Source of the DNA: an uncultured Prevotellaceae bacterium
GTDB taxonomy: Bacteria > Bacteroidota > Bacteroidia > Bacteroidales > Muribaculaceae
NCBI GenBank assembly: GCA_900322135.1
Contig: ONYP01000013.1
Span: 1-32,768 of the forward strand
Direction of reading: 5' to 3'
Length of the DNA stretch: 32,768 nucleotides
The translations under genes and the position numbers were made by a program. Positions within the stretch are counted from its first letter, which is position 1; every line of letters begins with the position of its first letter. Shown one piece after another: positions 8,494 through 28,085 of the stretch. The notes beneath the pieces are model-generated. The model was not told the DNA's origin and did not search any database. It saw only the letters and a program-made list of their open reading frames with translations.

Positions 8494-8501
8494 TAAAAAT
8501 A

Positions 8502-8525
8502 GGCAATGATATAGCTGTTGGCCCA
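8502..8525 (+). repeat. Left terminal inverted repeat of element 1
   Basis: The 24-bp end begins GGCAATGATATAGCTGTTGG and is identical to the reverse complement of 12440-12463 and to the internal copy 9855-9878. The host duplication TAAAAATA lies just outside it at 8494-8501. Confidence 0.9.
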
Positions 8526-8535
8526 GCTTTTATTG

Positions 8536-8561
8536 AAATGCAGTCCAAAAGGGCTGCATTT
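8536..8561. terminator. TIR-proximal hairpin terminator A
   Basis: AAATGCAGTCC, loop AAAA, then GGGCTGCATTT form an 11-bp stem with one T-G pair. The stem is followed by T on one side and preceded by A on the other, so it can act both ways. The stop codon of the minus-strand gene (8561-8563) overlaps it. Copies of the same design occur at 9893 and 28026. Confidence 0.7.
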
Positions 8562-9142
8562 TATGATAATAAACCCTTTAAGTAACGAAACATCCCATCG
8601 CACAATAATGTGAAACCCCGTTTTGCGTATTTCGGAGAGTTAAACGATAATAAATCATTTCCTCGATTGTCTCGAATTACATACGAGTCTGTTTCCGCTA
8701 ATAATTCGATACTGAGAAATTCGTTTATTCCTTGGTATGAGTATTGGCTTGATAAATCATCTTTTAAAACCCTATCTAATTCCCTTTTATCTGCTATGGA
8801 TTGAAGTGAGATAATGTTTATGGCCGATTTTTGAATTTGATGCATTGATTCTGCAATCTCAGAAACATATCTCTTGACGCTTGTCTCATTTGACAATAAC
8901 ACATCTTCTTCTCTGTACTCATAATCAAATGGAAAATCAATTTCCATAATGTCATACTCTTTCTCAACAAAAGGTATTCTCATTTCTGTTAGAATACATT
9001 CACGAGAAATGGCTAACAAAATAACATTATTTCTTTGGCGAGGGAATAATAGAACACACTCTACGCCACTATAAGTAAAGATGTATTTTGCAACCTTATC
9101 CTTATCCAAGTTATACAAATGGTCAAAACCTAAATATTTCAT
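8561..9142 (-). CDS. Element 1 cargo protein, unknown (193 aa)
   Basis: I do not recognise this protein. It begins MKYLGFDHLYNLDKDKVAKY, has no signal peptide or membrane segment, and contains alternating beta-like and charged helical stretches ending MFRYLKGLLS. It is AT-rich compared with the chromosomal genes around the element. It reads outward toward the left TIR and its stop codon lies in the hairpin terminator. A divergent cargo gene starts 47 bases upstream, so both likely share a control region. The same layout (outward gene, hairpin, TIR) is repeated at 9918-10316 and 27612-28025. Confidence 0.65.
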   Translation of the reverse strand: MKYLGFDHLYNLDKDKVAKYIFTYSGVECVLLFPRQRNNVILLAISRECILTEMRIPFVEKEYDIMEIDFPFDYEYREEDVLLSNETSVKRYVSEIAESMHQIQKSAINIISLQSIADKRELDRVLKDDLSSQYSYQGINEFLSIELLAETDSYVIRDNRGNDLLSFNSPKYAKRGFTLLCDGMFRYLKGLLS

Positions 9143-9189
9143 TTTTTCTAAAAATGGTATATATTTATATTAAGAAGATTACAAAGGTA

Positions 9190-9855
9190 ATGATATTATT
9201 CGAAGGATACAAAAAAGCCGTTGAAATATATAACAAATACAGCGGAACGGATAATGGCCGAACAACGGTGACATTGTACAATAATGAACTTGGTGTTTCT
9301 AAAGAATACCTTGTTTGGTTCACTTCGTGTATTGTTTGTTATAACATCCCTTTGTATATTGTGCTGAACGCATACAAAGATTGGAAACGATATGTTGTAT
9401 CATATTACAGGAAGACAGGCCAACCAATACCCAATATTGAATCACTTAACTACCAACAAACTATGAAGATAATCAATGAGTGTAAAAGGCAATGGGCGAA
9501 ACCTAATCCTATTTATAATCAAAACGGAGTATATGTTGGTGAGTTTAAATCGTTCAGTGACGCCAATATGTTACCGATAAACACTAATTGGTGCATTACA
9601 AAAACGAAAAGTCGTTACAATGAGTTCAACAATGAGAACAGTAAATGCCTTTATATCATAAACAACAGGAACCAAGACCCTTGGAGACGGGTTATTGCAG
9701 TTGTTTACACGGATAGGGTTGAGTATTGGGATTCCACAAACATTCGTATGGATGACAATGCCTCATATGAAAACACATTACCTTCGGAAGTCGTGGACAT
9801 TATACATAGCAAATGTCAGAAAACAAACGAAAATAAACAACATAAAACAAGATAG
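9190..9855 (+). CDS. Element 1 cargo protein with WCxT-type phage-like region (221 aa)
   Basis: ATG 9190 (MILFEGYKKAVEIYNKYSG) is preferred because earlier starts overlap the divergent gene. The second half contains PINTNWCITKTKSRYNEFNN, then 'CLYIINN', 'RVIAVVYTDRVEYWDS' and 'LPSEVVDIIHSKC'. This resembles the 'WC-T...F..Y' pattern seen in uncharacterised proteins of gut phages and other mobile elements, where a short strand pair follows the conserved Trp-Cys. Its function is unknown. The stop codon TAG uses the first G of the internal TIR copy (9855), and the last ten codons lie in a 24-bp sequence repeated at 10657. The C-terminus may therefore be the product of a recombination event. Confidence 0.6.
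   Translation: MILFEGYKKAVEIYNKYSGTDNGRTTVTLYNNELGVSKEYLVWFTSCIVCYNIPLYIVLNAYKDWKRYVVSYYRKTGQPIPNIESLNYQQTMKIINECKRQWAKPNPIYNQNGVYVGEFKSFSDANMLPINTNWCITKTKSRYNEFNNENSKCLYIINNRNQDPWRRVIAVVYTDRVEYWDSTNIRMDDNASYENTLPSEVVDIIHSKCQKTNENKQHKTR
9831..9854 (+). repeat. 24-bp direct repeat, copy 1
   Basis: The 24 bases ending AACATAAAACAAGATA are identical to 10657-10680. Here they end the 9190-9855 gene and touch the internal TIR; in the second copy they form the leader of the 10685 gene. The repeat brackets an 826-bp module. Confidence 0.85.
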
Positions 9856-9878
9856 GCAATGATATAGCTGTTGGCCCA
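9855..9878 (+). repeat. Internal third copy of the element 1 TIR
   Basis: The 24 bases are identical to the left end of element 1 and in the same orientation, and are followed by the same kind of hairpin and outward-facing gene. There is no matching 8-bp duplication at a partner end, so it is not a simple nested insertion. Confidence 0.88.
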
Positions 9879-9892
9879 AATATCTAATGAAA

Positions 9893-9910
9893 GCAGTCCA
9901 AAAGGGCTGC
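9893..9910. terminator. TIR-proximal hairpin terminator B
   Basis: GCAGTCC, loop AAAA, then GGGCTGC followed by ATTTTG. It shares sequence with hairpin A, and the minus-strand gene 9918-10316 stops 7 bases away. Confidence 0.6.
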
Positions 9911-9917
9911 ATTTTGA

Positions 9918-10316
9918 TTATGGAATCAAATCTAACTGTAGGGAATTACCACCCATATTATAATCGAACCAAGGGTCATTCAGAATGGCGAGTTCTTCTT
10001 CTGATATTAAGCCCTTATTTTGCAAAATTGCCAATATACTACTATCAATAAACTTCTGACCAAATAACTCAACAACTCCACCAACATTTATAAAGGCAAA
10101 CACAACCTGCAACTTATTGATAACGGATACTTGGCTTTTAACTGAAAGATAATCGGCATCAATCTGCCAAAATTTAGTCGGGTGTTGCTTAACATCATTA
10201 CTATATATGACTTTGCCGGTATCGGCTAAATCATTAAGCACTTCCCAAAGCAGTTTCCTTGAACAAACGTTCATTAGGTCATCAAGTACGGATTTTCCAA
10301 TGTAGAGTATACTCAT
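9918..10316 (-). CDS. Element 1 cargo protein, unknown (132 aa)
   Basis: I do not recognise this protein. It starts MSILYIGKSVLDDLMNV and has a helical first half with a short KVIYSNDVKQHPTKFWQID stretch. A hydrophobic region VVFAFINVGGVVELFG (about 78-93) follows, then an acidic helix (ISEEELAIL) and a short tail. No signal peptide is visible. It faces the internal TIR and stops next to hairpin B, repeating the layout of the left unit. It is AT-rich like its neighbours. A TACTTTTG -7 box precedes it. Confidence 0.6.
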   Translation of the reverse strand: MSILYIGKSVLDDLMNVCSRKLLWEVLNDLADTGKVIYSNDVKQHPTKFWQIDADYLSVKSQVSVINKLQVVFAFINVGGVVELFGQKFIDSSILAILQNKGLISEEELAILNDPWFDYNMGGNSLQLDLIP

Positions 10317-10332
10317 AGTCGTCTTTTTCTCG

Positions 10333-10340
10333 CAAAAGTA
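10333..10340 (-). promoter_or_regulatory. -7 promoter box of the 9918-10316 gene
   Basis: The minus strand reads TACTTTTG, a perfect TAnnTTTG box, 17 bases before the start. A partial TTG -33 lies about 19-20 bases upstream of it. Confidence 0.5.
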
Positions 10341-10385
10341 AGAACAAATTTAATAACAAGCAACTATTTATATAAAAACGTAATA

Positions 10386-10643
10386 ATGGACAATAGATTA
10401 AACTCTTTGATAGAAAGGATAGTTCGTGATGCTATAAACGAGGCAGGTGATTTACAACCTGATAATTATGTGCAAAACAATGCCCTTAATAAGTGGAGGG
10501 TTTTATATAATGTTATCACGAACTTGAAAAATGTAATGGAAATTACTTATAGGGACAATAACGGAAAAATAACCGGACAATTATATCAGGAGATTGTTGA
10601 CTATATTCATACGACCTTCAGTAATATGGGTATTAAAATGTAG
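10386..10643 (+). CDS. Element 1 cargo small protein with N-terminal amphipathic module (85 aa)
   Basis: This short soluble protein starts MDNRLNSLIERIVRDAINEA. That N-terminal helix resembles the one in the next gene and in a small open frame of element 2: hydrophobic-xx-II-xxx-V-xx-(A/V/Y)-I-x-E. The rest is a charged helical domain rich in Asn, Lys and Tyr (WRVLYNVITNLKNVMEITY). There is no known domain. It is divergent from the 9918-10316 gene and 41 bases before the 10685 gene on the same strand, so the two may be co-transcribed. Confidence 0.55.
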   Translation: MDNRLNSLIERIVRDAINEAGDLQPDNYVQNNALNKWRVLYNVITNLKNVMEITYRDNNGKITGQLYQEIVDYIHTTFSNMGIKM

Positions 10644-10656
10644 TCTGCTTAGTAAG

Positions 10657-10680
10657 AAATAAACAACATAAAACAAGATA
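10657..10680 (+). repeat. 24-bp direct repeat, copy 2
   Basis: Identical to 9831-9854. It sits directly before TAATATG, the start of the 10685 gene, so this copy is probably the native leader and the 9831 copy is derived. Confidence 0.85.
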
Positions 10681-10684
10681 TAAT

Positions 10685-11002
10685 ATGAAGAAGACAATTA
10701 GACTTAGTGAATCGGATTTACATAAAGTGATTAAGGAATCAGTGAAAAAGGTTTTTATGGAATCTATTGATAGCGTATCACCAGACCCATTTGGCACAAG
10801 TGCTGATTCATACCATTCTCAGTTCAAAGAAGATGCAATGTTCTTAAATAAGAATTGTCCGTGGAGAAAGAATCCTGATTGTGGCACAGTAGAAGGACTG
10901 ATAGAATGGGGAAATAATTGTTCAAGGGACTTTGAAAGCGGAAAACTAAGTATTCGAAATTACTTGGGCGATTTGAATAGAATGGCTAATGGCGGGATAT
11001 AA
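10685..11002 (+). CDS. Element 1 cargo protein with 'IRLSESDLHKVIKESV' leader (105 aa)
   Basis: The N-terminus IRLSESDLHKVIKESVKKV is a short helical tag that I associate with many otherwise unrelated small proteins of Bacteroidales phages and mobile DNA. The remaining ~80 residues hold three Cys and several Trp (NKNCPWRKNPDCGTV, IEWGNNCSRDF), which suggests a small fold stabilised by disulfides or a metal. The function is unknown. Its stop codon is only 5 bases from the stop codon of the convergent transposase gene, leaving no room for a terminator between them. Confidence 0.6.
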   Translation: MKKTIRLSESDLHKVIKESVKKVFMESIDSVSPDPFGTSADSYHSQFKEDAMFLNKNCPWRKNPDCGTVEGLIEWGNNCSRDFESGKLSIRNYLGDLNRMANGGI

Positions 11003-11007
11003 AGGCA

Positions 11008-11982
11008 TTAAGCCGCTTGGCACAGTTTAACCTCACTCCAACGTACAATCAGTCCAATGGACTTGGCGAACATATGGGCGAATCGCTCTGATTCGTCCAT
11101 TTTTCGCGTATTCCAACGATACACGGCCTCGTCAATGTAGCCTTGCAGATGCTCATCGCTCACGTCGTGGTAGCAACCCGTAATCATCCTACGGAAATGA
11201 GACCAAAACCCTTCAATGGTATTGGTGAATATGTCCCCATTCGCGTACTGTTCAGCACCGTGATTAACGATGGCATGACCATAACCTAACTTGGTCAGGC
11301 CACTGTAAGCGTTCAACTCATCGGTAATGACAGTTGAACCCTCAGCAACGAACTGCTTGATAATGGGCTGCAATGTGGCCTTGTCGGTCTTTTCAACAAC
11401 GAACGCGTGAACGTAACTCATGGGAATTATGTCACCCTTTTCATCCTCGATGTAGGTTCGCTCCATCAAACCGAATACGGGGGTCTTGGTCTTGGTTGAA
11501 CGGCCTTGGGTATGGGGTGTTCTCATGGATTTGTGCTTCCACTTCTCCTTGCCACCGATGTACACCTCATCGCACTCCACAGTGCCCTCAAAGGCTTCTG
11601 CATCGCTCTGAGGATAAAGCAAGCGGATTTTCTGCAACATATACCACGCGCTTGCTTGGGTGATATCGAGGTCACGGCTCAACTGATGTGAGGAAACACC
11701 TTTCTTGTGGCTGCTGATAAGGTACATGGCCACGAACCACTTGATAAGCGGCAACTTGGTATTCTCGAAGATTGTACCGACAAGACAGGAGAAGTTCTTG
11801 AGGCAGTGGTTGCAACGGAAACATCCGTCACCACGCTTGGAGCAATGATGAGCACCGCAGTAGGGGCAAACCACATCACCGTCACTCCAACGTGACTTGA
11901 TGATGGCCTGTTGGCACTTCTCCTTGGTGTTGAAATAGGAGGTAAGCGAGATAATGTTATTGAACTTTGCGAAGTTAATCAT
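11008..11982 (-). CDS. IS1595-family transposase
   Basis: The 324-residue transposase has the family's N-terminal zinc ribbon (VCPYCG at 38-43, CNHC at 57-60), then a helical DNA-binding segment, then an ISXO2-like RNase-H-fold catalytic domain. Candidate acidic residues are Asp138 in VECDEVYIGG and Asp221 in VITDELNAY, followed by the N/E region TNTIEGFWSHFRR (Asn254/Glu257). Length and motifs look intact, with no frameshift. It should cut at the GG-starting ends and produce 8-bp duplications, matching both elements in the window. It lies at the right of element 1 and reads away from the right TIR. It could also mobilise the transposase-less element 2 in trans. Confidence 0.92.
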   Translation of the reverse strand: MINFAKFNNIISLTSYFNTKEKCQQAIIKSRWSDGDVVCPYCGAHHCSKRGDGCFRCNHCLKNFSCLVGTIFENTKLPLIKWFVAMYLISSHKKGVSSHQLSRDLDITQASAWYMLQKIRLLYPQSDAEAFEGTVECDEVYIGGKEKWKHKSMRTPHTQGRSTKTKTPVFGLMERTYIEDEKGDIIPMSYVHAFVVEKTDKATLQPIIKQFVAEGSTVITDELNAYSGLTKLGYGHAIVNHGAEQYANGDIFTNTIEGFWSHFRRMITGCYHDVSDEHLQGYIDEAVYRWNTRKMDESERFAHMFAKSIGLIVRWSEVKLCQAA

Positions 11983-12146
11983 ACCGTATTTTACTTTTCT
12001 GATTAAAGTAATGCAAAGTTCGCGAATAATCCAGTGATTCCGGAATATTTTTAGCTAAAGAATGCTAGAAAACCCGCAAACCATGTAAGATTCGCGGGTT
12101 TTAGTGGGCCGATGGTAATACTATCACAACAAAAACCACCGAAACC
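11983..12146. other. Transposase upstream region with strong hairpin
   Basis: No coding frame is evident. A 9-bp perfect inverted repeat AAAACCCGC/GCGGGTTTT (12069-12077 and 12094-12102) is flanked by A and T runs and could terminate transcription in both directions. It would separate the transposase promoter from the RNA locus to its right. An AACCAC/GTGGTT palindrome (12134-12155) overlaps the -33 box of that locus. Confidence 0.45.
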
Positions 12147-12177
12147 TTTGTGGTTACGGTGATTTAAACTACCTTTG
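12147..12177 (+). promoter_or_regulatory. Consensus Bacteroidota promoter for the element 1 RNA
   Basis: TTTG (12147-12150), exactly 19 bases, then TACCTTTG (12170-12177). This is a full match to the -33/-7 consensus with the standard spacing, and no protein-coding frame starts after it. Confidence 0.75.
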
Positions 12178-12182
12178 CAATG

Positions 12183-12398
12183 CTCAGGGTCTGATCACCG
12201 CAGGGTGTATCCCTGCATATAACTTGGGTTCAGGCCATCAAAAGAGCAGAAAGGAGTGGTTTGCGATGGTTAACACAATAGTGTTCACAGAGCAGTGGCT
12301 AATTGAGGTAACAGACCTCATGCAGCGATTGGATGCTGTACGGCTCTAATTCTCCTTTTCTTGGAATGGTGGCGAACAACAACAGCCGCCATTCTTTT
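12183..12398 (+). ncRNA. Candidate structured RNA of element 1 (~215 nt)
   Basis: A consensus promoter and an intrinsic terminator bracket ~215 bases without a convincing open frame. Helices visible by eye are: GCAGGG-tgtat-CCCTGC (12200-12216); CCATC/GATGG (12235-12239 with 12265-12269); AACAC-aata-GTGTT (12272-12285). A three-way junction follows, closed by GAGC/GCTC (12290-12293 with 12343-12346). It encloses GAGGT-aacag-ACCTC (12305-12319) and TGCAGC/GCTGTA (12321-12340). The last helix is the terminator stem. The density of perfect short helices supports a structured RNA. I cannot match it to a known family. It lies between the transposase gene and the right TIR, so it may act in transposition, in control of the transposase, or as cargo. 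Confidence 0.55.
12364..12398 (+). terminator. Intrinsic terminator of the element 1 RNA
   Basis: GAATGGTGGC and GCCGCCATTC (12364-12373 and 12385-12394) pair over 10 bp with one G-T pair and are followed by TTTT. Confidence 0.7.
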
Positions 12399-12439
12399 AT
12401 ATAAATATAATGATATTTCTTGTGCTGTCAAGTATAAAT

Positions 12440-12463
12440 TGGGCCAACAGCTATATCATTGCC
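12440..12463 (-). repeat. Right terminal inverted repeat of element 1
   Basis: Perfect inverted copy of 8502-8525. It is followed by the 8-bp duplication TAAAAATA (12464-12471) and supplies the TGA stop (12456-12458) of the interrupted host gene. Confidence 0.9.
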
Positions 12464-13067
12464 TAAAAATATTATCAAAATGCTTTATCCAGTCATCTGG
12501 TTTTCTAACCATTTTTTTCCCCCAAGATAGATCATTTACAAAATTCAGAAAGACTAATACCACTTTACTGAACTGTTTCGACTCTTTGGCCAATTCTTGC
12601 ATCTTTTCCTTGAACACCATTCGATTGGCAATCTGGTAGTACTTCTTGAACCATACATCTTGGTCAGACTCGGATGTCAGATTTAAACCAGCAACAGTAT
12701 TAGCAACATTTCTAATTCGGCTACGGATGAGGCCTGATTTGGGCGTTGATGATCGTCTTATTTCGGAAAAGTGGGATTTCGCTTCAAAAAGATAAAGAGT
12801 TCCACTTCGTCCTAATGCAATACCATCCCACACTGGTTGTTTTGAAGGCCAAAAACCTTTGAATGCTTTTTGTTCAACATCAAGATTTCTCATAAGATCA
12901 TGATTATTTAACTGGCACTCATGGTAATTATTCTCCTTATCCTTCTTATAAGGCGATAACCATACGAGTTCGTCATCAAATTGTTTATTCAGAATATGCT
13001 GATTCTTTTTCTCAGTTATTCTCTGCATTTGCATTTTACTGCCTTTGCCGTTTGAAGTTTTGCTCAT
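12456..13067 (-). CDS. PD-(D/E)XK-nuclease-like protein, C-terminus replaced by element 1
   Basis: The 203-residue frame includes QPVWDGIALGRSGTLYLFEAK. The Asp (81) and the Glu-Ala-Lys (95-97) on the following strand are the layout of a PD-(D/E)XK catalytic core. Family members of this kind are small uncharacterised proteins thought to cut or bind DNA or RNA. The last two residues (RQ) and the TGA stop come from the element's right TIR. Without the insertion the protein would end 26 residues later, at 8414. The catalytic centre is upstream of the break, so activity may persist. Its upstream neighbour is the metallo-beta-lactamase gene, 71 bases away on the same strand. The nuclease assignment rests on one motif and is tentative. 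Confidence 0.6.
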   Translation of the reverse strand: MSKTSNGKGSKMQMQRITEKKNQHILNKQFDDELVWLSPYKKDKENNYHECQLNNHDLMRNLDVEQKAFKGFWPSKQPVWDGIALGRSGTLYLFEAKSHFSEIRRSSTPKSGLIRSRIRNVANTVAGLNLTSESDQDVWFKKYYQIANRMVFKEKMQELAKESKQFSKVVLVFLNFVNDLSWGKKMVRKPDDWIKHFDNIFRQ

Positions 13068-14512: not shown

Positions 14513-14989
14513 TTATTGATAAATCCTAGAGTCTTTTGTAATCCAGTCGCGGATATTGTCGAGATTCTCGTCATCGACAAAGACGGCGCGCAGGGTGATG
14601 TCATCTTGGACGCTGCTGGTGCTGAAGAAGTGTTCAAAAACCATATCCAAAGAATTGCAGTCTTCGATGAAGCGTTGCACATCCTTGATGAATTGCTCGT
14701 TGTTGCTGTGGCCGTCTGGAATGATGATGTGGATGAAACATAGCAGGCCGTAGTTGGGTTGCAATCCGGAAATCGGCATCAATAGGTTTCTTAAATCATC
14801 GAACAGGTTTTTTGCAGTTTCGTAAGTGTATCTGCTCTCAACTAGGTTCACTACATTGAAGTCAAACATCCATTCCATGTCGCTCAAGCAGCATGAGGAT
14901 TGTTCAAGACGGACTCCCTCCTGCGGAGCGTAGATTTGCTCCAGCAGGGTCAGGCGTTCGGTCGTCGTCAGGTTCTCAAGGATTCTCAT
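14513..14989 (-). CDS. Conserved-looking protein of unknown function (158 aa)
   Basis: The true start is ATG 14989 (MRILENLTTTERLTLLEQIY). It overlaps the stop codon of the upstream gene as ATGA, a sign of translational coupling. A longer frame in the same phase upstream is only the shadow of that gene. The protein is acidic and soluble, with alternating helices and strands (WMFDFNVVNLVESRYTYET; LLCFIHIIIPDGH) and no recognised motif. The regular spacing between this gene, its partner and the metallo-beta-lactamase gene suggests a three-gene unit. Confidence 0.7.
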   Translation of the reverse strand: MRILENLTTTERLTLLEQIYAPQEGVRLEQSSCCLSDMEWMFDFNVVNLVESRYTYETAKNLFDDLRNLLMPISGLQPNYGLLCFIHIIIPDGHSNNEQFIKDVQRFIEDCNSLDMVFEHFFSTSSVQDDITLRAVFVDDENLDNIRDWITKDSRIYQ

Positions 14990-15534
14990 TGCTCGTTCAT
15001 TTCTTTCCACAGGCGTTCCACTTCTTGTTGGTGCAGGGCGAATTCCAGTTTTGATCCGCTGAATCCGTTGAGGGGAACCCGCTCGAAGAATTGGGAGTAG
15101 AACTCGCGGGCATTGTAGTCTTCCCATGAGCGCCACGCCATTGCGCTCCAGTCCCATTTGTTGATAAACTTGCGGACAAGTTCGTTGGTCATTCTCACAT
15201 TGGGGTTCGCGGTGAGGGCTTTCCAGTCCCACAGGGGGGCGAGGGCTTCGATTCCTTCGGCCGTTACCGCCTGGCCGTGGGCGCATCTTGAGAATAGGTT
15301 CCAATTCAGTTTGTCTTTCCATCGCAGGGCCATCTCGGTGGTCCACTGGATTTCGTTGTTTCGAGACACCTCGTCCCACAGGAGTTGTTGCTCGTACCGT
15401 TCGAGGTGGGTCGCCGTCAGGGGGCGCTTTCGTGAGACGGTCATCCATGCTTGCCGTTCGATTTGTTTTTCCAGTCCTGCCGCCATTTCCACCCTGCGCA
15501 TCTCCGCTTTGTTGTTGACGATTACTTTGTCCAT
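14986..15534 (-). CDS. Trp-rich repeat protein (182 aa)
   Basis: ATG 15534 (MDKVIVNNKAEMRRVEMAAG) is chosen because the upstream extension in the open frame reads as low-complexity AT-rich DNA. From about residue 60 the sequence is built of units carrying W-x-W or W-x-x-L: LRWKDKLNWNLFSR, LAPLWDWKALTANPNV, FINKWDWSAMAW. These look like the 'WDWxxLS' repeats of ~20-30 residues found in Bacteroidales and phage proteins, probable protein-binding solenoids. The function is unknown. Its stop overlaps the next start (ATGA), so the two products are likely made in step. Confidence 0.65.
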   Translation of the reverse strand: MDKVIVNNKAEMRRVEMAAGLEKQIERQAWMTVSRKRPLTATHLERYEQQLLWDEVSRNNEIQWTTEMALRWKDKLNWNLFSRCAHGQAVTAEGIEALAPLWDWKALTANPNVRMTNELVRKFINKWDWSAMAWRSWEDYNAREFYSQFFERVPLNGFSGSKLEFALHQQEVERLWKEMNEQ

Positions 15535-15974
15535 TTCTTTGAAAATTAAAGATTTATATATTTGTTTATTTGAAAATTTTTTTGTATATAGGGGCGCGTT
15601 TAAGGTTGCGCTTATATCTATAAATACGAACTCGCGGCGACAAAAACGTGAATAATTTAGTGAACGGATGTTAAAAACTATCAATATCAGTAGTAAAACA
15701 TCACAGTATTACCTCATTCATTTAATATTCAAAATACTAAATACCAAGCCATTATTATACAATTTTAGAAAGTTTAACTAAACACACCTTCATTATCTGG
15801 ACTGCGTCCAAACAAGTATCATATAAACTACACATTCGTTCCGCCATAAAAAGCGTATCTTGTTTTCGACATATTTTACTCCAATAAGCGAAAAGAGAGT
15901 ATGCCAGAATGAAAAGGACCCCAAAAGTTTACTGTTAACTTTTGGGGGCTTCTTCAGAAGATCAGTGCAGGCTG
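15535..15974. other. Intergenic region, AT-rich, one terminator
   Basis: About 440 bases without a convincing gene. Apart from the terminator at 15919-15947 I see only an imperfect inverted repeat near 15590-15622 (GGGGCGC and GCGC between A/T tracts), which may belong to the promoter of the Trp-repeat gene. Confidence 0.4.
15919..15947. terminator. Intrinsic terminator after the RlaP-like gene
   Basis: CCCCAAAAGTT-tactgtt-AACTTTTGGGG is an 11-bp perfect stem. On the minus strand it is followed by TCCTTTTC. It lies 28 bases beyond the stop of the RlaP-like gene. Confidence 0.7.
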
Positions 15975-17168
15975 TTATGTTAACCGCAACTGCTGTTTTC
16001 TGATCTCAATCATCAGAGAATTGACAAATTCGGTGTCAACATGCTCACGGATGGTTGATTGTTCCATCAGCGAATTCATGCGTTCCTTTTCTTGCTCCAG
16101 CATGTCAATGATTTCGTCATACTCAAACTTGTGGTTTCGAACGTCCATCAAGAGTTGGCGGTCCCATGTTCGCTGAAGGATCAAACCTTTGCCCTCTGCG
16201 ATTTCACTAGCCATGTGCATCAATCTGAAGCAGTGCATCATGTTCTTGGAGTCATAGTTCTTCTCCAAGTTGGACTCATAACGCGCCTGGTTGCGATTTT
16301 TTACCCATTCCTGGTACTCGGCATACTGTCGGCAGTGAACCGAATATCCATCCTTATTGTAATAGATAAAGCACATGGGGCGGGAATGCTTGTCCTCGAT
16401 GGATGAAAGGCGGATTTCGTCAGCCTTGGCATCCACCTTGATGACTCCACGATAACCGATGGGGTACATGGCCGATAGGCGGTCACACATCTTGTCCATA
16501 TCACTCTCGCCGAAGTATTCGCAGGCGAAGGTCATGAACAACAAGTCCTCTCGCCATTCGGGATGGACCTCAGTGTGTGCGCCAAAATCATAATACACAC
16601 CGTAGATGTCATGCATGTTGGGCACATTCACCAAGCCACAGTATTCCTGGTAAAGCCCGCGATTCTGCAGCCAGTCCTTAAACCGCGTGCTACCTTGTCC
16701 CTTGAACGTGTAGATGAAGTGATAGGGTGTCAAGCGTTCATTCACGGGGTTGACAATCTTTTTGTTCAATCCACGCGCCTTCTCAATCTGGGACTTGGCG
16801 TAGCCAAAGAACGGATTGAAGCACTGTTTGCTGATGAATCGGTCGCGATTGTCAATCAACAATTGCATGAGCGGTGCCGGCTTCACAAGCATTTTGTCTT
16901 CGGGGACAAACAAGCTTTCTAGCACCGTGGGGTTGGACTTGAGCAACAGCCTGACAAGTTCACCGATTTCAAACCATGTATTGTCATGACGACTGTCACT
17001 CACTTGTCCCTTGTAACCAAAGCACCCCAATAGTTGCTCGGCGGTGCAGATGAACACACCGCTCGTGTCCACGTCGGAAACCTCGGTGTTAAGGCCGTAG
17101 AGATGGCTGCCACGTATATATTCATACAATAGCCTGCCGTCATTTCTTATCTTGTCAAATTCACTCAT
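15975..17168 (-). CDS. RlaP-like nucleotidyltransferase (PF10127-type)
   Basis: The 397-residue protein has the DNA-polymerase-beta-fold nucleotidyltransferase signature IRGSHLYGLNTEVSDVD: Gly20-Ser21, then the metal-binding Asp-x-Asp at 32 and 34. After it come the long helical region and 'YAKSQIEKARGL' typical of the RlaP (RNA ligase-associated polymerase) group. These enzymes are predicted to add nucleotides to RNA ends during repair and are often encoded beside RNA ligases. Its start overlaps the 3' end of the CCA-adding gene by 8 bases, so the two are translationally coupled, and an RtcB ligase gene lies just upstream. I place it in an RNA repair cluster; the exact substrate is unknown. 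Confidence 0.82.
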   Translation of the reverse strand: MSEFDKIRNDGRLLYEYIRGSHLYGLNTEVSDVDTSGVFICTAEQLLGCFGYKGQVSDSRHDNTWFEIGELVRLLLKSNPTVLESLFVPEDKMLVKPAPLMQLLIDNRDRFISKQCFNPFFGYAKSQIEKARGLNKKIVNPVNERLTPYHFIYTFKGQGSTRFKDWLQNRGLYQEYCGLVNVPNMHDIYGVYYDFGAHTEVHPEWREDLLFMTFACEYFGESDMDKMCDRLSAMYPIGYRGVIKVDAKADEIRLSSIEDKHSRPMCFIYYNKDGYSVHCRQYAEYQEWVKNRNQARYESNLEKNYDSKNMMHCFRLMHMASEIAEGKGLILQRTWDRQLLMDVRNHKFEYDEIIDMLEQEKERMNSLMEQSTIREHVDTEFVNSLMIEIRKQQLRLT

Positions 17169-18585
17169 CTTTTTTAGTCTTTTTCAATCGATATCCTTTC
17201 AAATGCTTGATGACCTCTTCTTTGTCACGAAGAGGATTCACAAATGCCAGTTTCAACAGGAACTCCTGGCATTCCTTTACTCTGGGGCCAGGGCTGAGAC
17301 CTTTCAGTTCCATGATGTCATTGCCCGTCAGCCACGGCTTGTATCCAAACAATGCACTCCCTTCAGCAATCATATCGACGCTGCGCTTTCTGATGAACGG
17401 CACTTGTTCAGGCAGACAGCGCCCTTCGGCATGGGCCATGTTATCAGCATGGATAAGCGTCATCAGGTCATCAAAACGCTGCTCGGTCTTGCAGATGTAC
17501 TGCAACTTTCTGATTTTGCGATTGTGCTTGCTCTGTATTACTTGTCCCCATTGTTTGCAGGACATATGGTAAAGAGTCAAGAATGACACATCGTCAATTG
17601 CCCTGTTGGGGAATTTCAGTCGTGACATGATCTCTTTCACCATAACGGCACCTGCCAGTTCATGGCCAATGAAATGAACGCTTCCGTCCACTCGCTCTTC
17701 ACGTGCGCGCACCTTGCCGATGTCATGCAGCACGGCTGCGAGTCGTAAGTCAGTGCGGGAGGTTACTGCTGAGATGTTTTCCAGCACCTTCATTGAGTGT
17801 TCCCACACGGTGCCAAAGTGATAGTCGTTCTGGTTCATTTCATATGCTTTCTCCATTTCGGGGACGACGAAATGCATGGCACCAGACTGTCGCAGCAGTC
17901 CCATGGCCATGACCGGATGGTCGCAAGAAAGCATCTTCTCGAACTCATCACGGATGCGTTCCCGAGAGATGATTTCCAACCTTGGCACATTGCGCAACAT
18001 ACCATCCCATGTGCTGGGTTCAATCTCCCATCCGTAACGAGAAGCAAATCGGATGCAGCGCAGAATGCGCAATGGGTCGTCATCATAGGTCAAATCGGGA
18101 TCAGCGGGCGTGCGGATGATATGGTCACGGATGTCTTCTGCGCCATGTCCCGTGATATCGATAACCTCTCCCGTGGATATATCCCAGTACAGCGCGTTGA
18201 TGGTTAAGTCGCGGCGCATACAGTCTTCCTCTATAGTGCCAAAGGCTGTGACAGGGTTGCGGCTGTTATGGTCATTATACTTCTCCTTGCGGGTCTGAAC
18301 AGCTTCCAGTTCCTCATCGGGGTAATCTTTCAAGCGGAACATGGCGGTGTGGTAGGTAGGATAAGTAACCGCATGGATTGAGGTATGACCGTTCTGGTCC
18401 AGCCACTCTGCCAGGCGTATACCGCCATCGGGCAGAGTTACGGCTATATCAATATCCTTGATCTCATGTCCCATGATTCTATCCCGGACGCAACCTCCGA
18501 CACAGAGCACGTGTCCTTCGAACTCAGTACCCCGAATTAACTCACGAAGCCGTTCAGTTATTGATATGTACAATTCCCTTTTCAT
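17161..18585 (-). CDS. cca: CCA-adding-type tRNA nucleotidyltransferase with HD domain
   Basis: The 474-residue enzyme has the class II CCA-adding head: CVGGCVRDRIMGHEIKDIDI (28-47, with catalytic Asp-x-Asp), RRDLTINALYWD, and DDPLRILRCIRFASRYGW, which shapes the nucleotide pocket. An HD phosphohydrolase domain follows (AAVLHDIGK, then 'HFIGHELAG'). Class II enzymes repair or complete the 3' CCA of tRNAs; the HD domain can remove 2',3'-cyclic phosphates. Start ATG 18585 is preferred to 18621. The overlap with the RlaP-like gene and the RtcB gene upstream suggest a role in RNA repair. It might still be the cell's only CCA enzyme, since Bacteroidota housekeeping versions have a similar size and domain order. 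Confidence 0.85.
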   Translation of the reverse strand: MKRELYISITERLRELIRGTEFEGHVLCVGGCVRDRIMGHEIKDIDIAVTLPDGGIRLAEWLDQNGHTSIHAVTYPTYHTAMFRLKDYPDEELEAVQTRKEKYNDHNSRNPVTAFGTIEEDCMRRDLTINALYWDISTGEVIDITGHGAEDIRDHIIRTPADPDLTYDDDPLRILRCIRFASRYGWEIEPSTWDGMLRNVPRLEIISRERIRDEFEKMLSCDHPVMAMGLLRQSGAMHFVVPEMEKAYEMNQNDYHFGTVWEHSMKVLENISAVTSRTDLRLAAVLHDIGKVRAREERVDGSVHFIGHELAGAVMVKEIMSRLKFPNRAIDDVSFLTLYHMSCKQWGQVIQSKHNRKIRKLQYICKTEQRFDDLMTLIHADNMAHAEGRCLPEQVPFIRKRSVDMIAEGSALFGYKPWLTGNDIMELKGLSPGPRVKECQEFLLKLAFVNPLRDKEEVIKHLKGYRLKKTKKDE

Positions 18586-18677
18586 TTCAAAATGCCGGTT
18601 GCCAAAAGAATGCACATGCATAGTTACAAATCTTATCGCTCATTTATCCAGTTCATCCAGTTTTTTATATTCAAAAA

Positions 18678-18717
18678 GCGCCAAGCGGCAATGAGAAAAG
18701 TCAATACCGCTTGGCGC
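18678..18717 (-). terminator. Intrinsic terminator after rtcB
   Basis: GCGCCAAGCGG and CCGCTTGGCGC pair over 11 bp (18678-18688 with 18707-18717) and TTTTTG follows on the minus strand. It ends the AAA-rtcB transcript, so the CCA/RlaP pair must have its own promoter or depend on read-through. Confidence 0.8.
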
Positions 18718-18741
18718 CCGAATGGAAAGACTATTATGGGG

Positions 18742-19914
18742 TTAGCCTTTGATCACTGCGATGGGGAGCAGGCGAGTTAAGATCTTGACCAGGTCAAGTT
18801 CGTTGTTGATGACCTGCTCGATGTCCTTGTAGGCTCCTGCCGCCTCCTCGAGGTCACGCTGCGAGCGGATGGCGTGGACAATACCCTGGTCATCCAGTTT
18901 CTTCACCTCATCCTCGAGCGAGAGCGTCTTGACAGCCGCAGTGCGGCTCATCAAGCGGCCAGCGCCGTGGGAGCAGCTGTTGAAGGAGTCCGGGTTACCA
19001 AGGCCCTCAACGATATAGGATGCAGTGCCCTGCGAGCCGGGGATGATGCCCACGATGCCCTCGCGAGCCAAGGTTGCGCCCTTGCGGTGAACGATGACAT
19101 TCTTGCCGTAGTGGTGTTCCCATGCTGCGTAATTGTGGGCGATGTTGATCATCGGCTCAAACTCAATGCCGGGAAGGGCATCGGCAATGACTTCCTGGAT
19201 GCGTTCCATCATCAGGCGTCGGTTGCACAAGGCAAATTCCACGCAGTACTGCATCTCGGCCCAGTAGTCGTTGAACTCCTGGGTCCGCAAAGGCAGGAAT
19301 GCCAGCCGCAGTTCGGGCTTCACCACCGAGTGCCAGCGCTCGTTGAGCATGACGGCAAGCTTGTTGTAGTGGTCGCCCACTTGCTTGCCCAGGTTGCGGC
19401 TACCCGAGTGGATCATGATCCACAGCATGCCCTTCTCATCGCGCTGCAGTTCGATGAAGTGATTGCCGCCACCCAGCGTACCCACCTGACGCTGTGCCGA
19501 GATGTACTGCGCCTTGACCACGGTCAGCTTGTCGATATCGTGACCTTGGGGCATGTGGCGTTCATCCTGGCGTTCCTTGTGGTGGTCCATGCCGAGGGGG
19601 ATGCGCCCACGGATGCCGCGCATGATCTGCTTGCGCAATACTTCGGTGGAAATATCCTCGACGCGCCAATTGGTCTTGACGGCGCACATGCCGCACCCGA
19701 TGTCCACGCCCACGGCGTTGGGAATCACGGCGTCAACACAGGCCAGCACACCGCCGATAGGCATTCCCATGCCGGCATGCACATCGGGCATGATGGCGAG
19801 GTGGTGGAACAGGAAGGGCAGCGTGCACAGGTTTTCAATCTGCTGCATCGCGCTCTCTTCCACATCGTTCGTCCAGATTTTGACAGGACGGTCGTTTATC
19901 ATTTTAACTTCCAT
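18742..19914 (-). CDS. rtcB: RtcB-family RNA-splicing ligase
   Basis: The 390-residue protein carries the RtcB signatures: MPDVHAGMGMPIGG (42-55), VGVDIGCGM (68-76, metal-binding Cys), GGGNHFIE (148-155), HSGSRNLGKQ (169-178), and SCSHGAGR (313-320), whose His316 is the expected guanylylation site. It ends in PIAVIKG, the usual C-terminal end. RtcB joins 2',3'-cyclic-phosphate or 3'-phosphate ends to 5'-OH ends using GTP and Mn2+, and in bacteria repairs cleaved tRNAs and rRNA. It is somewhat shorter than archaeal RtcB (~480) and close to E. coli RtcB (408). It lies 30 bases after the AAA+ gene on the same strand. No archease gene is in the window. Confidence 0.93.
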   Translation of the reverse strand: MEVKMINDRPVKIWTNDVEESAMQQIENLCTLPFLFHHLAIMPDVHAGMGMPIGGVLACVDAVIPNAVGVDIGCGMCAVKTNWRVEDISTEVLRKQIMRGIRGRIPLGMDHHKERQDERHMPQGHDIDKLTVVKAQYISAQRQVGTLGGGNHFIELQRDEKGMLWIMIHSGSRNLGKQVGDHYNKLAVMLNERWHSVVKPELRLAFLPLRTQEFNDYWAEMQYCVEFALCNRRLMMERIQEVIADALPGIEFEPMINIAHNYAAWEHHYGKNVIVHRKGATLAREGIVGIIPGSQGTASYIVEGLGNPDSFNSCSHGAGRLMSRTAAVKTLSLEDEVKKLDDQGIVHAIRSQRDLEEAAGAYKDIEQVINNELDLVKILTRLLPIAVIKG

Positions 19915-19944
19915 TGTCTCTTTTCATTTTTCGCGTTTAACTTG

Positions 19945-21117
19945 TTATGCACACAGAATTTGCAGGCCACCTCTGTACAGAGACGGTGCATCGTGATAAT
20001 TGACGATGCAGCAAAGTTCCTCCTTATCATTCCATGAATTCCTCACTGTGAAGAAACCATCAACATCAGGTTGCTCTAGGATAACACCGATTCTGGTATC
20101 CTGCTCTTTCATTAACATGGGATAGCGAGAGGCTATCTGCATAGAGTAGCAGTCGGCATCAAACCGTTCATCAATCTGGGCCTTATTGTTGGTGCGCTCG
20201 CCATCAGAATCCACCCAAGGCTTATTCAGCCAAGCGCCAACGGTCTCTCCCTTTTTGAGTTGCCCCTTGATGAAAGTCTTGAGTTCATCAAATCTGTTTT
20301 TAGGAACATCGTCAAAGCGTACAACATCAATCTTGTAACTTGCCTTGGGGATGTTCAGGAGGCTGTTCTCGTTAATCTCTCCATGGATATTCACTTCATC
20401 AACGATGGACTTCAGAATGTCGATGGTTGAAATCTCCAGTACATCAACGACGTTAAGTATCTGTGCAGTTTTACTCTGGTCGCGAAGATTGTCCTTGATG
20501 TAATCAGCAACAGCCTTTGCCGTCAGGTTGCCGAACTGCTTGATATACCTAATTCGACCCGGTCGTCCAAGAAGATTCTCGTCGATTGTCAGGCGGTTGG
20601 TGGTCAAGATATATAGTTTTCGGGTTTCATTATATACACCGTCAATCATCTTGAGAAGCATATCACCGGCTTTATTGAATGTCTTCTCTGCCTCATCAAT
20701 CAGCACAATACATTCAAAGCATAGTGACTGGATGAAATCTACCAAAGAGTCGTAAGGGGCGTTGACAATCACCACGGGCATTGATAACCTGTTGCTCAAA
20801 ATCTTTGACGCGATGGTCTTTCCAGTACCTTTCAGCCCGTTGAAGATGATGCCCAAGTTCTTGTTCCCCTCCACGAAAACGTCTGAGTTCCATGTGCTCT
20901 CAATTTTACGCATGGTGTCTTCAGCACCTAGGTCATATATCTTGAAATTGAATGTGAACTTGTCGGCAATCTTTCGCAAACCGAGACGTGAGCCTCCCAT
21001 GCTGGTTTGTTCGTATATTTGAAATACTCCCATCCCGGGTGTAATATGTAGAGTCGTGTCTCCTGGAATTGGATAGAAGACACCATTTTCCTTTACCCAT
21101 TTTTGTTTTACTTCCAT
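19945..21117 (-). CDS. AAA+ ATPase linked to rtcB
   Basis: The 390-residue protein has a BCS1/phage-like AAA+ core: Walker A NGLKGTGKT (93-101), Walker B CIVLIDEAEK (136-145), sensor LTTNRL (171-176) and an arginine-finger region LLGRPGRIR (182-190). The N-terminal ~90 residues (substrate or assembly domain) and the C-terminal ~170 are not recognised. It is co-transcribed with rtcB (30-base gap), and both proteins start MEVK. A likely role is remodelling RNA-protein complexes or activating the ligase, perhaps replacing archease; this is inference. A TAACTTTG -7 box lies ~97 bases upstream, leaving a leader with a TTCGG-gatgag-CCGAA hairpin. Confidence 0.82.
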   Translation of the reverse strand: MEVKQKWVKENGVFYPIPGDTTLHITPGMGVFQIYEQTSMGGSRLGLRKIADKFTFNFKIYDLGAEDTMRKIESTWNSDVFVEGNKNLGIIFNGLKGTGKTIASKILSNRLSMPVVIVNAPYDSLVDFIQSLCFECIVLIDEAEKTFNKAGDMLLKMIDGVYNETRKLYILTTNRLTIDENLLGRPGRIRYIKQFGNLTAKAVADYIKDNLRDQSKTAQILNVVDVLEISTIDILKSIVDEVNIHGEINENSLLNIPKASYKIDVVRFDDVPKNRFDELKTFIKGQLKKGETVGAWLNKPWVDSDGERTNNKAQIDERFDADCYSMQIASRYPMLMKEQDTRIGVILEQPDVDGFFTVRNSWNDKEELCCIVNYHDAPSLYRGGLQILCA

Positions 21118-21213
21118 TTCCTTTTTCGTCTTTAGTAATTATACATCATTTAATAAATGCGGGGTCCTGTAGCTCACAATTCAAGCGTCTTCGGCTCATC
21201 CCGAATCGCGATG

Positions 21214-21221
21214 CAAAGTTA
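21214..21221 (-). promoter_or_regulatory. -7 promoter box of the AAA-rtcB operon
   Basis: The minus strand reads TAACTTTG, a perfect TAnnTTTG box. No -33 TTTG at 19-21 bases; activator dependence is possible. Confidence 0.5.
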
Positions 21222-21328
21222 TGTTTTGAGCAACGCAATCTTTCTGCGTAGCAAAAAATAATCGTTTCAAAAACAACAAAAAAGTGCGATTTTTAACACA
21301 TGCGCAAATAGGCTGCGTAGAAAATGCC

Positions 21329-21336
21329 TACTTTTG
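21329..21336 (+). promoter_or_regulatory. -7 promoter box of the WYL gene
   Basis: TACTTTTG matches TAnnTTTG, 37 bases before the start. It is divergent from the AAA-rtcB promoter, with 107 bases between the two boxes, room for shared regulator sites. Confidence 0.5.
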
Positions 21337-21373
21337 CATCGGTAACTGACATTAAACAACAAAACTGAAAAAA

Positions 21374-27128: not shown

Positions 27129-27150
27129 GGGAATGATATACTATTTGTCC
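27129..27150 (+). repeat. Left terminal inverted repeat of element 2
   Basis: GGGAATGATATACTATTTG plus TCC, identical to the reverse complement of 28086-28107. The host repeat ATTTTTTT is just outside. Confidence 0.88.
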
Positions 27151-27172
27151 CAGAATGAAAAGAAATCACATT

Positions 27173-27460: not shown

Positions 27461-27530
27461 TGATATACTCTCGAACCACATTTTTGATTATTCCCTCAAT
27501 AATCACTTCTTTTCGCTTATTTCTATCCAT
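27426..27530 (-). CDS. Element 2 34-residue open frame with amphipathic N-terminal module
   Basis: ATG 27530 opens MDRNKRKEVIIEGIIKNVVR, then EYINEQYS, and stops at 27426. The helix 'VIIEGIIKNVVREYINE' follows the same hydrophobic-xx-II-xxx-V-xxx-I-x-E pattern as the 10386 and 10685 proteins. It overlaps the next gene's start in a different phase. It may be a translated leader peptide, or the detached N-terminus of the 27173-27460 protein. Confidence 0.4.
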   Translation of the reverse strand: MDRNKRKEVIIEGIIKNVVREYINEQYSQKYFHQ

Positions 27531-27583
27531 ATCAATATACTTTATACTTTACTTATAAATAGTAATTTATCAGATATTTTTTG

Positions 27584-27591: not shown

Positions 27592-27611
27592 CGCTAATAA
27601 TAGTTTTCGAC

Positions 27612-28049: not shown

Positions 28050-28085
28050 CATATTTTAGCAATTTTTATGTTAGAAATTACTTGA

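Follow-up and report, generated by a model that had tools for sequence, protein, structure and literature searches.

Transposons of the IS1595 family that carry passenger genes are already known, and mobile insertion cassettes are transposase-less elements with passenger genes. In T4, the internal proteins and Alt carry capsid targeting sequences (CTSs) that are cut by gp21, and in IPIII the CTS has ten residues and its processing depends on residues 8 and 10 (PMC9026906). Jumbo phages have been described that transduce genomic islands, which use a tyrosine integrase downstream of tmRNA (PMC12595487).

The window analysed here, a 32,768-bp stretch of DNA from an uncultured Prevotellaceae bacterium, contains an element that resembles the IS1595 family in its transposase, with a Zn-ribbon and an IS1595 DDE (ISXO2-like) domain, in its ends starting with GG and in its 8-bp target duplications. 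Unlike in other IS1595 elements, the leader-tag block of its family is constant and flanked by two exchangeable slots, the cargo bears a phage tag and a phage-type upstream motif, and members sit in huge phages. None of these three features was found for IS1595 in the literature searched. The family shares with the jumbo-phage islands (PMC12595487) the carriage of bacterial mobile elements by very large phages, but it is a DDE transposon that inserts into both phage and host genomes.

An IS1595-family element with two cargo modules

The segment 8502–12463 is, as the original prediction had proposed, an element of the IS1595 family whose 24-bp ends are perfect and whose 8-bp duplication is exact. 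The terminal inverted repeat GGCAATGATATAGCTGTTGGCCCA forms the outer left end (8502–8525, plus strand) and, with 24/24 complementary positions, the right end (12440–12463, minus strand), flanked by the target-site duplication TAAAAATA at 8494–8501 and 12464–12471. Besides these two copies, TAAAAATA is absent from the plus strand between 8400 and 12600. With up to three mismatches, the 3.09-Mb genome has 11 occurrences of the 24-mer end and 0 of its reversed control, so that a chance origin of the ends is excluded in practice. The transposase (324 aa, 11008–11982, minus strand) is intact, again as predicted, and matches Pfam DDE_Tnp_IS1595 (PF12762; 3.8e-45, 154.1 bits, cut-off 27) and Zn_ribbon_IS1595 (PF12760; 3.4e-6, 27.4 bits, cut-off 25.4) as well as the NCBIfam IS1595 transposase (NF033547; 4.7e-57, 193.3 bits, cut-off 75).

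The insertion interrupts a gene: a minus-strand ORF (12456–13067) runs into the right end, and an open frame on the same strand resumes left of the left end. A comparison of strains for the empty site, which had been suggested, yielded one match across the joined flanks among 101 relatives (G052, 68% identity), but its left side spans just 16 bp, 8 of which are the duplication, and this genome is a weak candidate for the empty site. The putative ongoing mobility of the element fits its sequence. As anticipated, the 4-kb arrangement is not fixed, and the other copy in the same genome, L012, combines a 97% identical transposase with different cargo and has a similar hairpin close to its cargo-side end.

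A third exact copy of the 24-bp end lies inside the element in the orientation of the left end (9855–9878, plus strand), and the cargo therefore consists of two modules in tandem. The 18-nt hairpin GCAGTCC-AAAA-GGGCTGC inside the left end (8540–8557) has an identical second copy behind the internal end (9893–9910). In module A, the untagged XA (193 aa, 8561–9142, minus strand) has the host-type promoter element TAnnTTTG at 9182–9189 (minus strand), and YA (221 aa from the ATG at 9190; 9190–9855, plus strand) has the phage-type upstream motif TATTTAT 28 nt before its start (9162–9168, plus strand). YA terminates at the inner end and so lacks the tag and the C-terminal part of its relatives L023, L031 and L238. 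Two loci in the viral contigs encode relatives of YA, and its predicted fold (pLDDT 77.5, pTM 0.63) matched no PDB entry at E <= 0.001. Alignment alone (12–22% identity) places XA with its X counterparts in L023, L031 and L238, to which it has no phmmer match; its fold model (pLDDT 39.6) was discarded.

In module B, XB (132 aa, 9918–10316, minus strand; weak relatives in L034, 8e-5, and L050, 5e-4) is preceded by two copies of TAnnTTTG (10333–10340 and 10345–10352, minus strand). TATTTAT (10365–10371, plus strand) lies 21 nt before the start of YB (85 aa, 10386–10643, plus strand), whose N-terminus LNSLIERIVRDAINEAG looks by eye like a shorter tag variant. The tagged gene follows (105 aa, 10685–11002, plus strand), with its tag MKKTIRLSESDLHKVIKESVKKVFMES at 10685–10765 (plus strand) and a variable body that reaches the transposase stop. 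A 24-bp leader repeat precedes this gene (copy 2, 10657–10680, plus strand) and also abuts the inner end (copy 1, 9831–9854, plus strand). The last 8 bp of copy 1, ACAAGATA, may stem from an earlier insertion, as its target duplication. A second element would have inserted into the leader of the first one, and one tag-transposase half would then have been lost, leaving two tandem modules.

The five small unknown genes that had been described are present as ORFs, and the cargo set proved as unfamiliar as it had seemed: no family exceeded its curated cut-off in Pfam or NCBIfam, PADLOC gave nothing at E <= 0.01, and PHROGs gave E >= 0.02 throughout. Cargo of other elements (two sets of ten proteins) likewise gave nothing above the Pfam cut-offs; below them were DUF4160 for the X of L061 (22 bits, cut-off 23) and Pribosyltran for the X of L057. 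Their PHROG matches were to families without an assigned function, the best being phrog_38534 (2.9e-4).

Most relatives are built as IR-tnp>-<Y-X>-IR, with differing cargo. The constant blocks are the inverted repeat with the transposase, the leader with the tag, and the hairpin with the inverted repeat; exchangeable slots lie in between. With up to six mismatches allowed in the ends, exact 8-bp duplications were found in 25 of 40 distinct transposase copies (43 entries minus L103, L131 and L139, which repeat L022, L023 and L024), and a further scan added three more. Y and X form a divergent pair that is mostly co-inherited (15 of 19 pairs, which are not independent since they belong to about five families). 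Co-inheritance is also a trait of toxin-antitoxin and effector-immunity pairs; of known toxin or antitoxin domains, the sub-threshold DUF4160 in the X of L061 was the only sign.

Most Y genes are preceded by TATTTAT and most X genes by TAnnTTTG, the host promoter element. The Y upstream regions are A+T-rich, and shuffles gave TATTTAT in 1.5 of 37; in this 37-element count, the tagged ORF was taken as the window's Y and, having no motif, was scored as a miss. The motif also stands upstream of 106 of 305 other phage genes in the loci listed. It is a candidate phage-type promoter, not a proven one. Its reading as a T4 late promoter was dropped, because the T4 late element reads in the opposite direction. 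Y with the phage-type motif and X with the host promoter are also seen in chromosomal copies, among them the window and L046 (Prevotella sp. MA2016); in L050 (Prevotella sp. tf2-5), the X promoter is present and TATTTAT is absent within the range tested.

A short tag shared with huge T4-like phages

Of 45 testable copies, 36 have the tag, of about 27 residues, behind the transposase and antisense to it; in the other nine, the model did not recognize it. These 45 were drawn from 57 loci; in the remainder, the C-terminus of the transposase or 800 bp of sequence beyond it was missing. Twelve further viral-contig transposases (36–61% identity) were kept outside this count. Ten of them, mostly more distant transposases, have at least 1.3 kb behind, and the tag is missing in six of these ten (L290, L293, L296–L299). 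At E <= 0.1, the tag has two matches in the window's 3.09-Mb genome, both inside its IS1595 elements, 3–33 matches in each of 12 phage contigs, and six in LR756508.1. At E <= 1e-5, there are 15 matches in 11 of 101 genus genomes, eight of which lie about 1 kb or less from a transposase. In an isolated-phage collection, where the short query makes the search weak, the tag was found at E <= 10 in one of 50,697 records, at three places. The tag string RLTESDL was not found in the literature searched.

Most tagged phage loci were collected as at least 600 stretches, at least 157 of them confirmed, in at least 78 loci. The motif, cassette, TATTTAT and body-match counts are based on the tagged proteins of the loci listed (at least 170 distinct ones). 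The tag starts at residue 3 or earlier in 138 of 170 distinct proteins listed and beyond residue 40 in 17, and some proteins contain two tags (for example L265, 667 aa, and L195, 498 aa). The motif L/I-x-E occupies tag model positions 8–10 in 137 of the 138 N-terminal phage tags listed and positions 25–27 in 115 of them, compared with 102 of the 16024 positions that follow the tag. In the window's own tag, the first place reads L-S-E and the second F-M-E. A cut site at positions 25–27 alone had been considered and was widened, given the near-constant motif at 8–10. Of 37 elements, 19 have the tag inside a longer frame that is open for 60 codons or more ahead of it (fewer than 60 in the other 18), and targeting would then require either translation starting internally at the ATG of the tag or an internal signal.

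Compared with the T4 CTS by its published description rather than by T4 sequence, the tag is similarly a short N-terminal segment common to otherwise different proteins, its L/I-x-E at 8–10 matches the IPIII CTS positions, and the tag-bearing phages encode a gp21-type protease. It differs from the 10–19-residue CTS of T4 in its length of about 27 conserved residues, unless only the first ten are removed, and in its presence on many proteins per phage and inside transposon reading frames.

Of 13 phage records, 10 encode a T4 gp21-type prohead protease (Peptidase_S77, PF03420) that scores above the cut-off, against none of 14 controls. The three records in which it was not seen (G109, 147 kb; G110, 136 kb; G112, 62 kb) are likely fragments. 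In the distance test on the ten protease records, with tag positions taken from the listing without its weakest matches, a listed tag lies within 2 kb of the protease in seven phages, where random placement gave a mean of 1.2 and never reached seven in 20,000 trials. The nearest listed tag in the other three is 5.6, 25 and 31 kb away. When G102, G103, G107 and G108 are counted as one lineage, the tag is near the protease in 4 of 7 (P 0.006). In G103, a Gp23 capsid protein, portal and terminase share the protease/tag locus.

Several matches speak for exchange between phages and chromosomes. The tagged-protein body of the chromosomal L058 matches a tagged gene in phage L205 (1.5e-55), 1.2 kb from an S77 protease (1e-23), and the transposase blocks of phage L241 and the chromosomal L042/L043 are 93% identical. 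Complete elements with ends and target duplications are present in viral contigs. The window's exact 24-bp end has no occurrence in the viral contigs, the phage copies bearing other ends, and only two of the 37 transposon bodies that follow the tag have a match among the tagged phage proteins listed. Viral homologues were found for 5 of 19 N-parts and 19 of 36 X, mostly in phage-borne elements themselves; the clearest outside transposase loci is the match of the L035/L045 N-part in phage locus L214 (3e-67). Short cassettes with inverted repeats and duplications hold 6 of the 153 tagged phage genes listed and none of the controls; five have no transposase, and the sixth, L203, retains a remnant of about 45 residues.

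Proposed delivery of the cargo and its alternatives

We consider it probable that this IS1595-type family inhabits huge T4-like phages from rumen and gut samples as well as Prevotella-type chromosomes, and that it moves phage-adapted, putatively capsid-targeted cargo. In this reading, the tag would be a capsid-targeting sequence; the tagged protein would be made during infection from the phage-type promoter, enter the prohead, be trimmed there behind L/I-x-E by the gp21-type protease, and be ejected with the DNA into the next cell. X, acting as a partner (immunity, chaperone or counter-factor), would be expressed by the host from a promoter of its own, and cargo would be swapped by recombination at the tag, whose DNA recurs in phages and transposons alike. 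In a more far-reaching version, which we hold to be possible though somewhat short of an even chance, the family would be a transposon-borne, virion-delivered cargo system that circulates between huge T4-like phages and their presumed Prevotella-type hosts. Its co-inherited Y-X modules would be under split control, with X switched on by the host sigma factor and Y by phage transcription; the tag would serve both for packing Y into heads and as the joint for swapping modules, and single tagged cassettes would hop within phage genomes without a transposase of their own. If so, huge phages would have a route to gain and exchange injected proteins via a transposon and its hitch-hiking cassettes, and ready-made, capsid-addressed genes would move between phage and host. 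With the tag, candidates for injected proteins could be listed from DNA alone for huge phages that are uncultured, and there would be a direct way to test how internal proteins of the T4 type diversify; the model would explain why the unknown genes of rumen Bacteroidales IS1595 elements differ from copy to copy.

An ordinary passenger-gene transposon might instead have picked up neighbouring DNA, which would be phage DNA because such elements often sit in huge phages, the tag being the marker of a large phage protein family of any function and the cargo being useless to the element. The precedent of passenger genes in IS1595-type elements, the failure of the tested cargo to reach any family cut-off and the untagged six of ten further viral-contig transposases agree with such capture. 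Random capture leaves unexplained the same place and orientation of the tag in 36 of 45 copies, the X-Y co-inheritance in 15 of 19 pairs and the opposite promoter types of Y and X, and we regard it as unlikely. We give a similarly low chance to the tag being another targeting or assembly signal in the infected cell, such as one for phage nucleus import, scaffold binding or degradation. Its internal position in 17 of the 170 proteins listed, its doubling in L265 and L195, and the protease phages that carry it only far from the protease would suit such a signal; its mostly N-terminal position (138 of 170 listed), the fixed L/I-x-E and the clustering of tags at the gp21-type protease argue against it.

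The promoter arrangement in the chromosomal copies (window and L046) would also suit a host defence or a parasite on phages, in which phage transcription triggers Y, Y enters the prohead through its tag and spoils or hijacks assembly, and X protects the host or regulates Y. Elements and tagged cassettes lie inside phage genomes, some of them beside structural genes, which is unexpected for a purely anti-phage element, and PADLOC matches neither the window's cargo nor that of L012. This role appears quite improbable to us, and virion delivery remains our preferred, if tentative, model.

The leader with a micro-ORF and a second element

The candidate RNA of the original prediction is a folded leader ahead of a conserved 26–27-aa ORF. 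Its transcription unit (12147–12394) comprises TTTG (12147–12150, by eye), TACCTTTG (12170–12177), AGAAAGGAG between the folded leader and the micro-ORF (12248–12256), the 27-aa micro-ORF MVNTIVFTEQWLIEVTDLMQRLDAVRL (12266–12349; similar in L024 and L274), and a closing hairpin followed by a T-run (12364–12394), all on the plus strand. The RNA candidate has no Rfam match up to E = 1. Among 101 genomes, the unit is matched in G049 (1.6e-16) and G091 (1.6e-10). Just ahead of it lies AGTGGGCC (12103–12110), the inner remnant of an earlier right end; relatives with short ends have their terminal repeat at the equivalent position.

The window also contains a 979-bp element of the same kind without a transposase (27129–28107), with perfect 22-bp ends GGGAATGATATACTATTTGTCC and the target duplication ATTTTTTT. 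Like mobile insertion cassettes, it and the phage cassettes have inverted repeats, a target duplication, a gene inside and no intact transposase; unlike them, the passenger here is a tagged phage gene. The X gene of the 979-bp element lies at 27612–28025 (plus strand). Its Y gene starts at 27530 (minus strand) with an N-terminus that is tag-like by eye, and the part related to the Y of L026 (27481–27173) is in another frame than this start. The original prediction had included neither this element nor the third internal end, the tandem modules, the micro-ORF and the connection with huge T4-like phages. The viral contigs (L294/L295) contain a transposase whose ends are identical to those of this cassette in the window.

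The window element and its family

The original prediction of a complete IS1595-family element at this locus was borne out: the element at window positions 8502-12463 is bounded by 24-bp inverted ends that match each other fully, is flanked by an exact duplication of TAAAAATA and encodes an intact transposase of 324 aa. The insertion interrupts, near its end, a gene without an assigned function. The chromosomal neighbours encode a glycoside hydrolase of family 3, a Na/Pi transporter, a response regulator and histidine kinase, RtcB and a TonB receptor, with three tRNAs in the surroundings. In a comparison for empty sites, one of 101 relatives spans the joined flanks, weakly, with one side reaching only 8 bp beyond the duplication.

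A third exact copy of the end lies inside the element at 9855-9878; it is oriented like the left end, and the same hairpin follows both. The cargo therefore comprises two tandem modules, A and B, each opening with an end and a hairpin and each carrying a divergent gene pair, X and Y. A 24-bp repeat stands immediately before the third end (9831-9854) and again (10657-10680) before the gene carrying the tag, a segment of about 27 residues with the consensus xKKxIRLTESDLHRIVKESVxxxLxE. As the simplest history suggested by the sequence, element B would have inserted itself in element A's leader and duplicated ACAAGATA, and one of the two tag-transposase halves would then have been lost through recombination.

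The other IS1595 copy in the same genome, L012, has a TCAAGAAA duplication, a transposase 97% identical to that of the window and the same plan with different cargo. In a survey of named genomes and genus genomes, in which up to 6 mismatches between ends were tolerated, 25 of 40 distinct transposase copies had ends and exact 8-bp duplications, and a separate comparison added three more. Each gene was inspected in 27 of the elements, which are 1.6-4.8 kb long. The commonest layout is terminal inverted repeat (IR), transposase, Y pointing back at the transposase, divergent X, and IR, from which L025, L042, L047, L052, L055 and L062 depart. Copies occur in strain-titled records rather than MAGs (L046 in Prevotella sp. 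MA2016, L050 in Prevotella sp. tf2-5), and a fragment is found in the likewise strain-titled complete sequence of Segatella baroniae B14 (L067); chromosomal residence is thus not merely a binning artefact.

In 36 of 45 testable copies, the tag is encoded no more than 1.5 kb behind the transposase and antisense to it, and the tag model found none in the other nine (L025, L047, L052, L055, L060, L062, L065, L066 and L240). In the window's genome, its matches are confined to the two IS1595 elements (E <= 0.1), and the 101 genus genomes contain 15 matches in 11 genomes (E <= 1e-5), eight of them within about 1 kb of a transposase. The cargo of L025, L047 and L062, which are tagless by model, includes by eye a repeat-rich surface- or tail-like protein. 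MITE-like derivatives of 160-162 bp, which have ends of this kind mismatched at 3 of 22 positions and are flanked by exact 8-bp duplications, were also observed, four in genome G094 and one in G067 (L113, L141, L143, L146 and L147), along with further, unproven end pairs of similar spacing.

Constant blocks, exchangeable slots and upstream motifs

Apart from the end itself, the window element and L012 align in three blocks: the IR and transposase to the stop codon (91.5% identity), the leader and tag (87 bp, 93%), and the hairpin and IR (59 bp, 95%; 87% against the second copy of this block). Over a 1141-bp stretch that begins at the tag edge and stops just short of the end, the elements L035 and L045 are 96.8% identical, against only 74.7% in the transposase block, and their proteins behind the tag are unrelated. 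Among the elements having a tag, 19 pairs, which represent about five families and hence are not independent, share the N-terminal part of Y (E < 1e-10). X is homologous in 15 of these 19 pairs (background, 26 of 630), all four misses involving L046, and the part behind the tag is homologous in none (background, 13 of 666). X is co-inherited with Y and the part behind the tag is not; the tag is therefore the joint where cargo is exchanged, and X goes together with Y.

The two genes also differ in their upstream motifs. TATTTAT lies 15-55 nt upstream of the Y start in 29 of 37 elements (shuffled, 1.5), and the host element TAnnTTTG precedes Y in none of the 37. Before X, TAnnTTTG was found in 22 of 34 elements (shuffled, 2.4) and TATTTAT in 6. 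Both genes are served by a single intergenic stretch, so the pattern appears in mirror image on the opposite strands. One study gives TAnnTTTG as the -7 consensus of the main sigma factor of Bacteroides (PMC7366714). In the window, the rule is kept in modules A and B and in a second, transposase-less cassette, given a YA start at 9190. Among the matches listed, TATTTAT occurs within 80 nt before 75 of 136 tagged phage genes (opposite strand, 28; shuffled, 10), and before 106 of 305 other phage genes. Of 232 phage genes of at least 150 aa, 82 have TATTTAT and 33 have TAnnTTTG; of 180 host genes, 7 and 58 do, respectively. In the phage record G103, TATTTAT precedes the capsid, scaffold-like and portal genes and is absent before the protease and terminase genes.

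Phage copies, cassettes and phage heads

The tag model has 3 to 33 matches per contig in 12 phage contigs of 62-413 kb and six in the 484-kb phage LR756508.1 (E <= 0.1). Three of the eight transposase loci first found in viral contigs have ends and duplications, the ends being perfect in L238, with 2 mismatches of 24 in L239 and with 5 mismatches in the tagless L240. Twelve further viral-contig transposases are 36-61% identical; a tag within 2.6 kb was present in four of the 10 testable ones, once in the opposite direction, and ends with duplications were found for L291, L293 and L294/L295 as well as for the distant L298 and L299. L294 and L295 look like one element present in two contigs. L237 is located between tail-tube and tail-sheath genes, L239 is close to a gp19-type tail-tube gene, and the element remnant L244 adjoins a capsid gene.

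The transposase block of phage L241 has 93% DNA identity to those of chromosomal L042 and L043. In phage L205, a tagged gene located 1.2 kb from one for Peptidase_S77 (1e-23) is matched by the body of the tagged protein of chromosomal L058 (1.5e-55). Such matches to a tagged phage protein were obtained for only 2 of 37 transposon bodies (reversed control, 0). Among the matches listed, short cassettes of 441-1394 bp, bounded by IS1595-type ends and exact duplications, enclose 6 of 153 tagged phage genes, and the element L239 encloses a seventh; controls with other terminal dinucleotides gave 0, and untagged ORFs 3 of 575. Five of the six cassettes lack a transposase and L203 retains about 45 residues of it; the weakest are L209 (ends with 4 mismatches of 22) and L200 and L203 (A-runs as duplications). 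The window cassette at 27129-28107 is of the same transposase-less kind, with perfect 22-bp ends, identical to those of L294/L295, a ATTTTTTT duplication and a Y with a relative in L026. Another relative of this Y (L190, 5234-5467; 9e-10) is encoded at one extremity of a viral contig in which tagged genes occur as well, and a phage protein in L277 (2156-3286) joins a YA-type domain to repeats that by eye resemble those of phage homing endonucleases.

The T4 gp21-type prohead protease (PF03420) scores above the cut-off in ten of the 13 phage records and in none of the 14 control genomes. Among the matches listed, a tag lies within 2 kb of the protease gene in seven of the ten records (129, 193, 95, 1409, 1131, 1220 and 628 bp), and the nearest tag is 5.6, 25 and 31 kb away in the other three. 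Random placement gave a mean of 1.2 and never reached seven in 20,000 trials; with G102, G103, G107 and G108 merged as one lineage, a guess based on a shared neighbour gene, the count is 4 of 7 (P 0.006). The protease locus of G103 also has a Gp23 capsid protein (2.5e-73), portal and terminase. According to one source (PMC9026906), T4 gp21 cleaves behind L/I-x-E, and ejected proteins of T4 bear capsid targeting sequences in the form of N-terminal propeptides 10-19 residues long; in IPIII, ten N-terminal residues are enough, and residues 8 and 10 determine processing. Among the matches listed, L/I-x-E stands at tag positions 8-10 in 137 of 138 N-terminal phage tags and at positions 25-27 in 115; behind the tag, the motif occupies 102 of 16024 positions. 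In the window element, the tag reads L-S-E at the first site and F-M-E at the second. In large phage proteins of 498-711 aa (L265, 7262-9265; L195, 1606-3102; L264, 5535-7670), the tag is internal or doubled, and these are candidate scaffold proteins or polyproteins.

Our comparisons establish the family and its architecture, the shuffling at the tag, the distribution of the tag in phages and two putative promoter types. In the working that we propose, Y would be produced during phage infection, enter the phage head, be trimmed and then be injected, with X as its presumed resident partner. By analogy with the T4 internal proteins, Y may act on the host or on host defences. Passenger-carrying IS1595 elements and T4 capsid targeting are each established; searches of open-licence papers found no mobile family that combines the two, and the case for novelty would be stronger if packaging were shown.

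The candidate RNA and a neighbouring cluster

The extra right end of the window element (12105-12440), for which a candidate RNA had been proposed, has counterparts in L024 and in L274, where the adjacent transposase is 76% identical. A folded leader, the purine-rich AGAAAGGAG and an ORF of 26-27 aa are common to the three sequences, and in the window and L024 a terminator-like hairpin follows the ORF. From the three sequences compared, the candidate is more probably the mRNA of a putative micro-protein than a non-coding RNA. In the window (12248-12256) and L274, AGAAAGGAG forms a strong Shine-Dalgarno-like stretch before the micro-ORF. Such strong sequences are unusual in Bacteroidetes. Phages with genomes of up to 331 kb reportedly encode the ribosomal protein bS21 (PMC9723584). 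Elsewhere in the window, 14513-22402 encodes an RtcB ligase and a poly(A)-polymerase-type nucleotidyltransferase, and by eye further ORFs for a nucleotidyltransferase, an ATPase and a WYL-type regulator, resembling an RNA-repair cluster.
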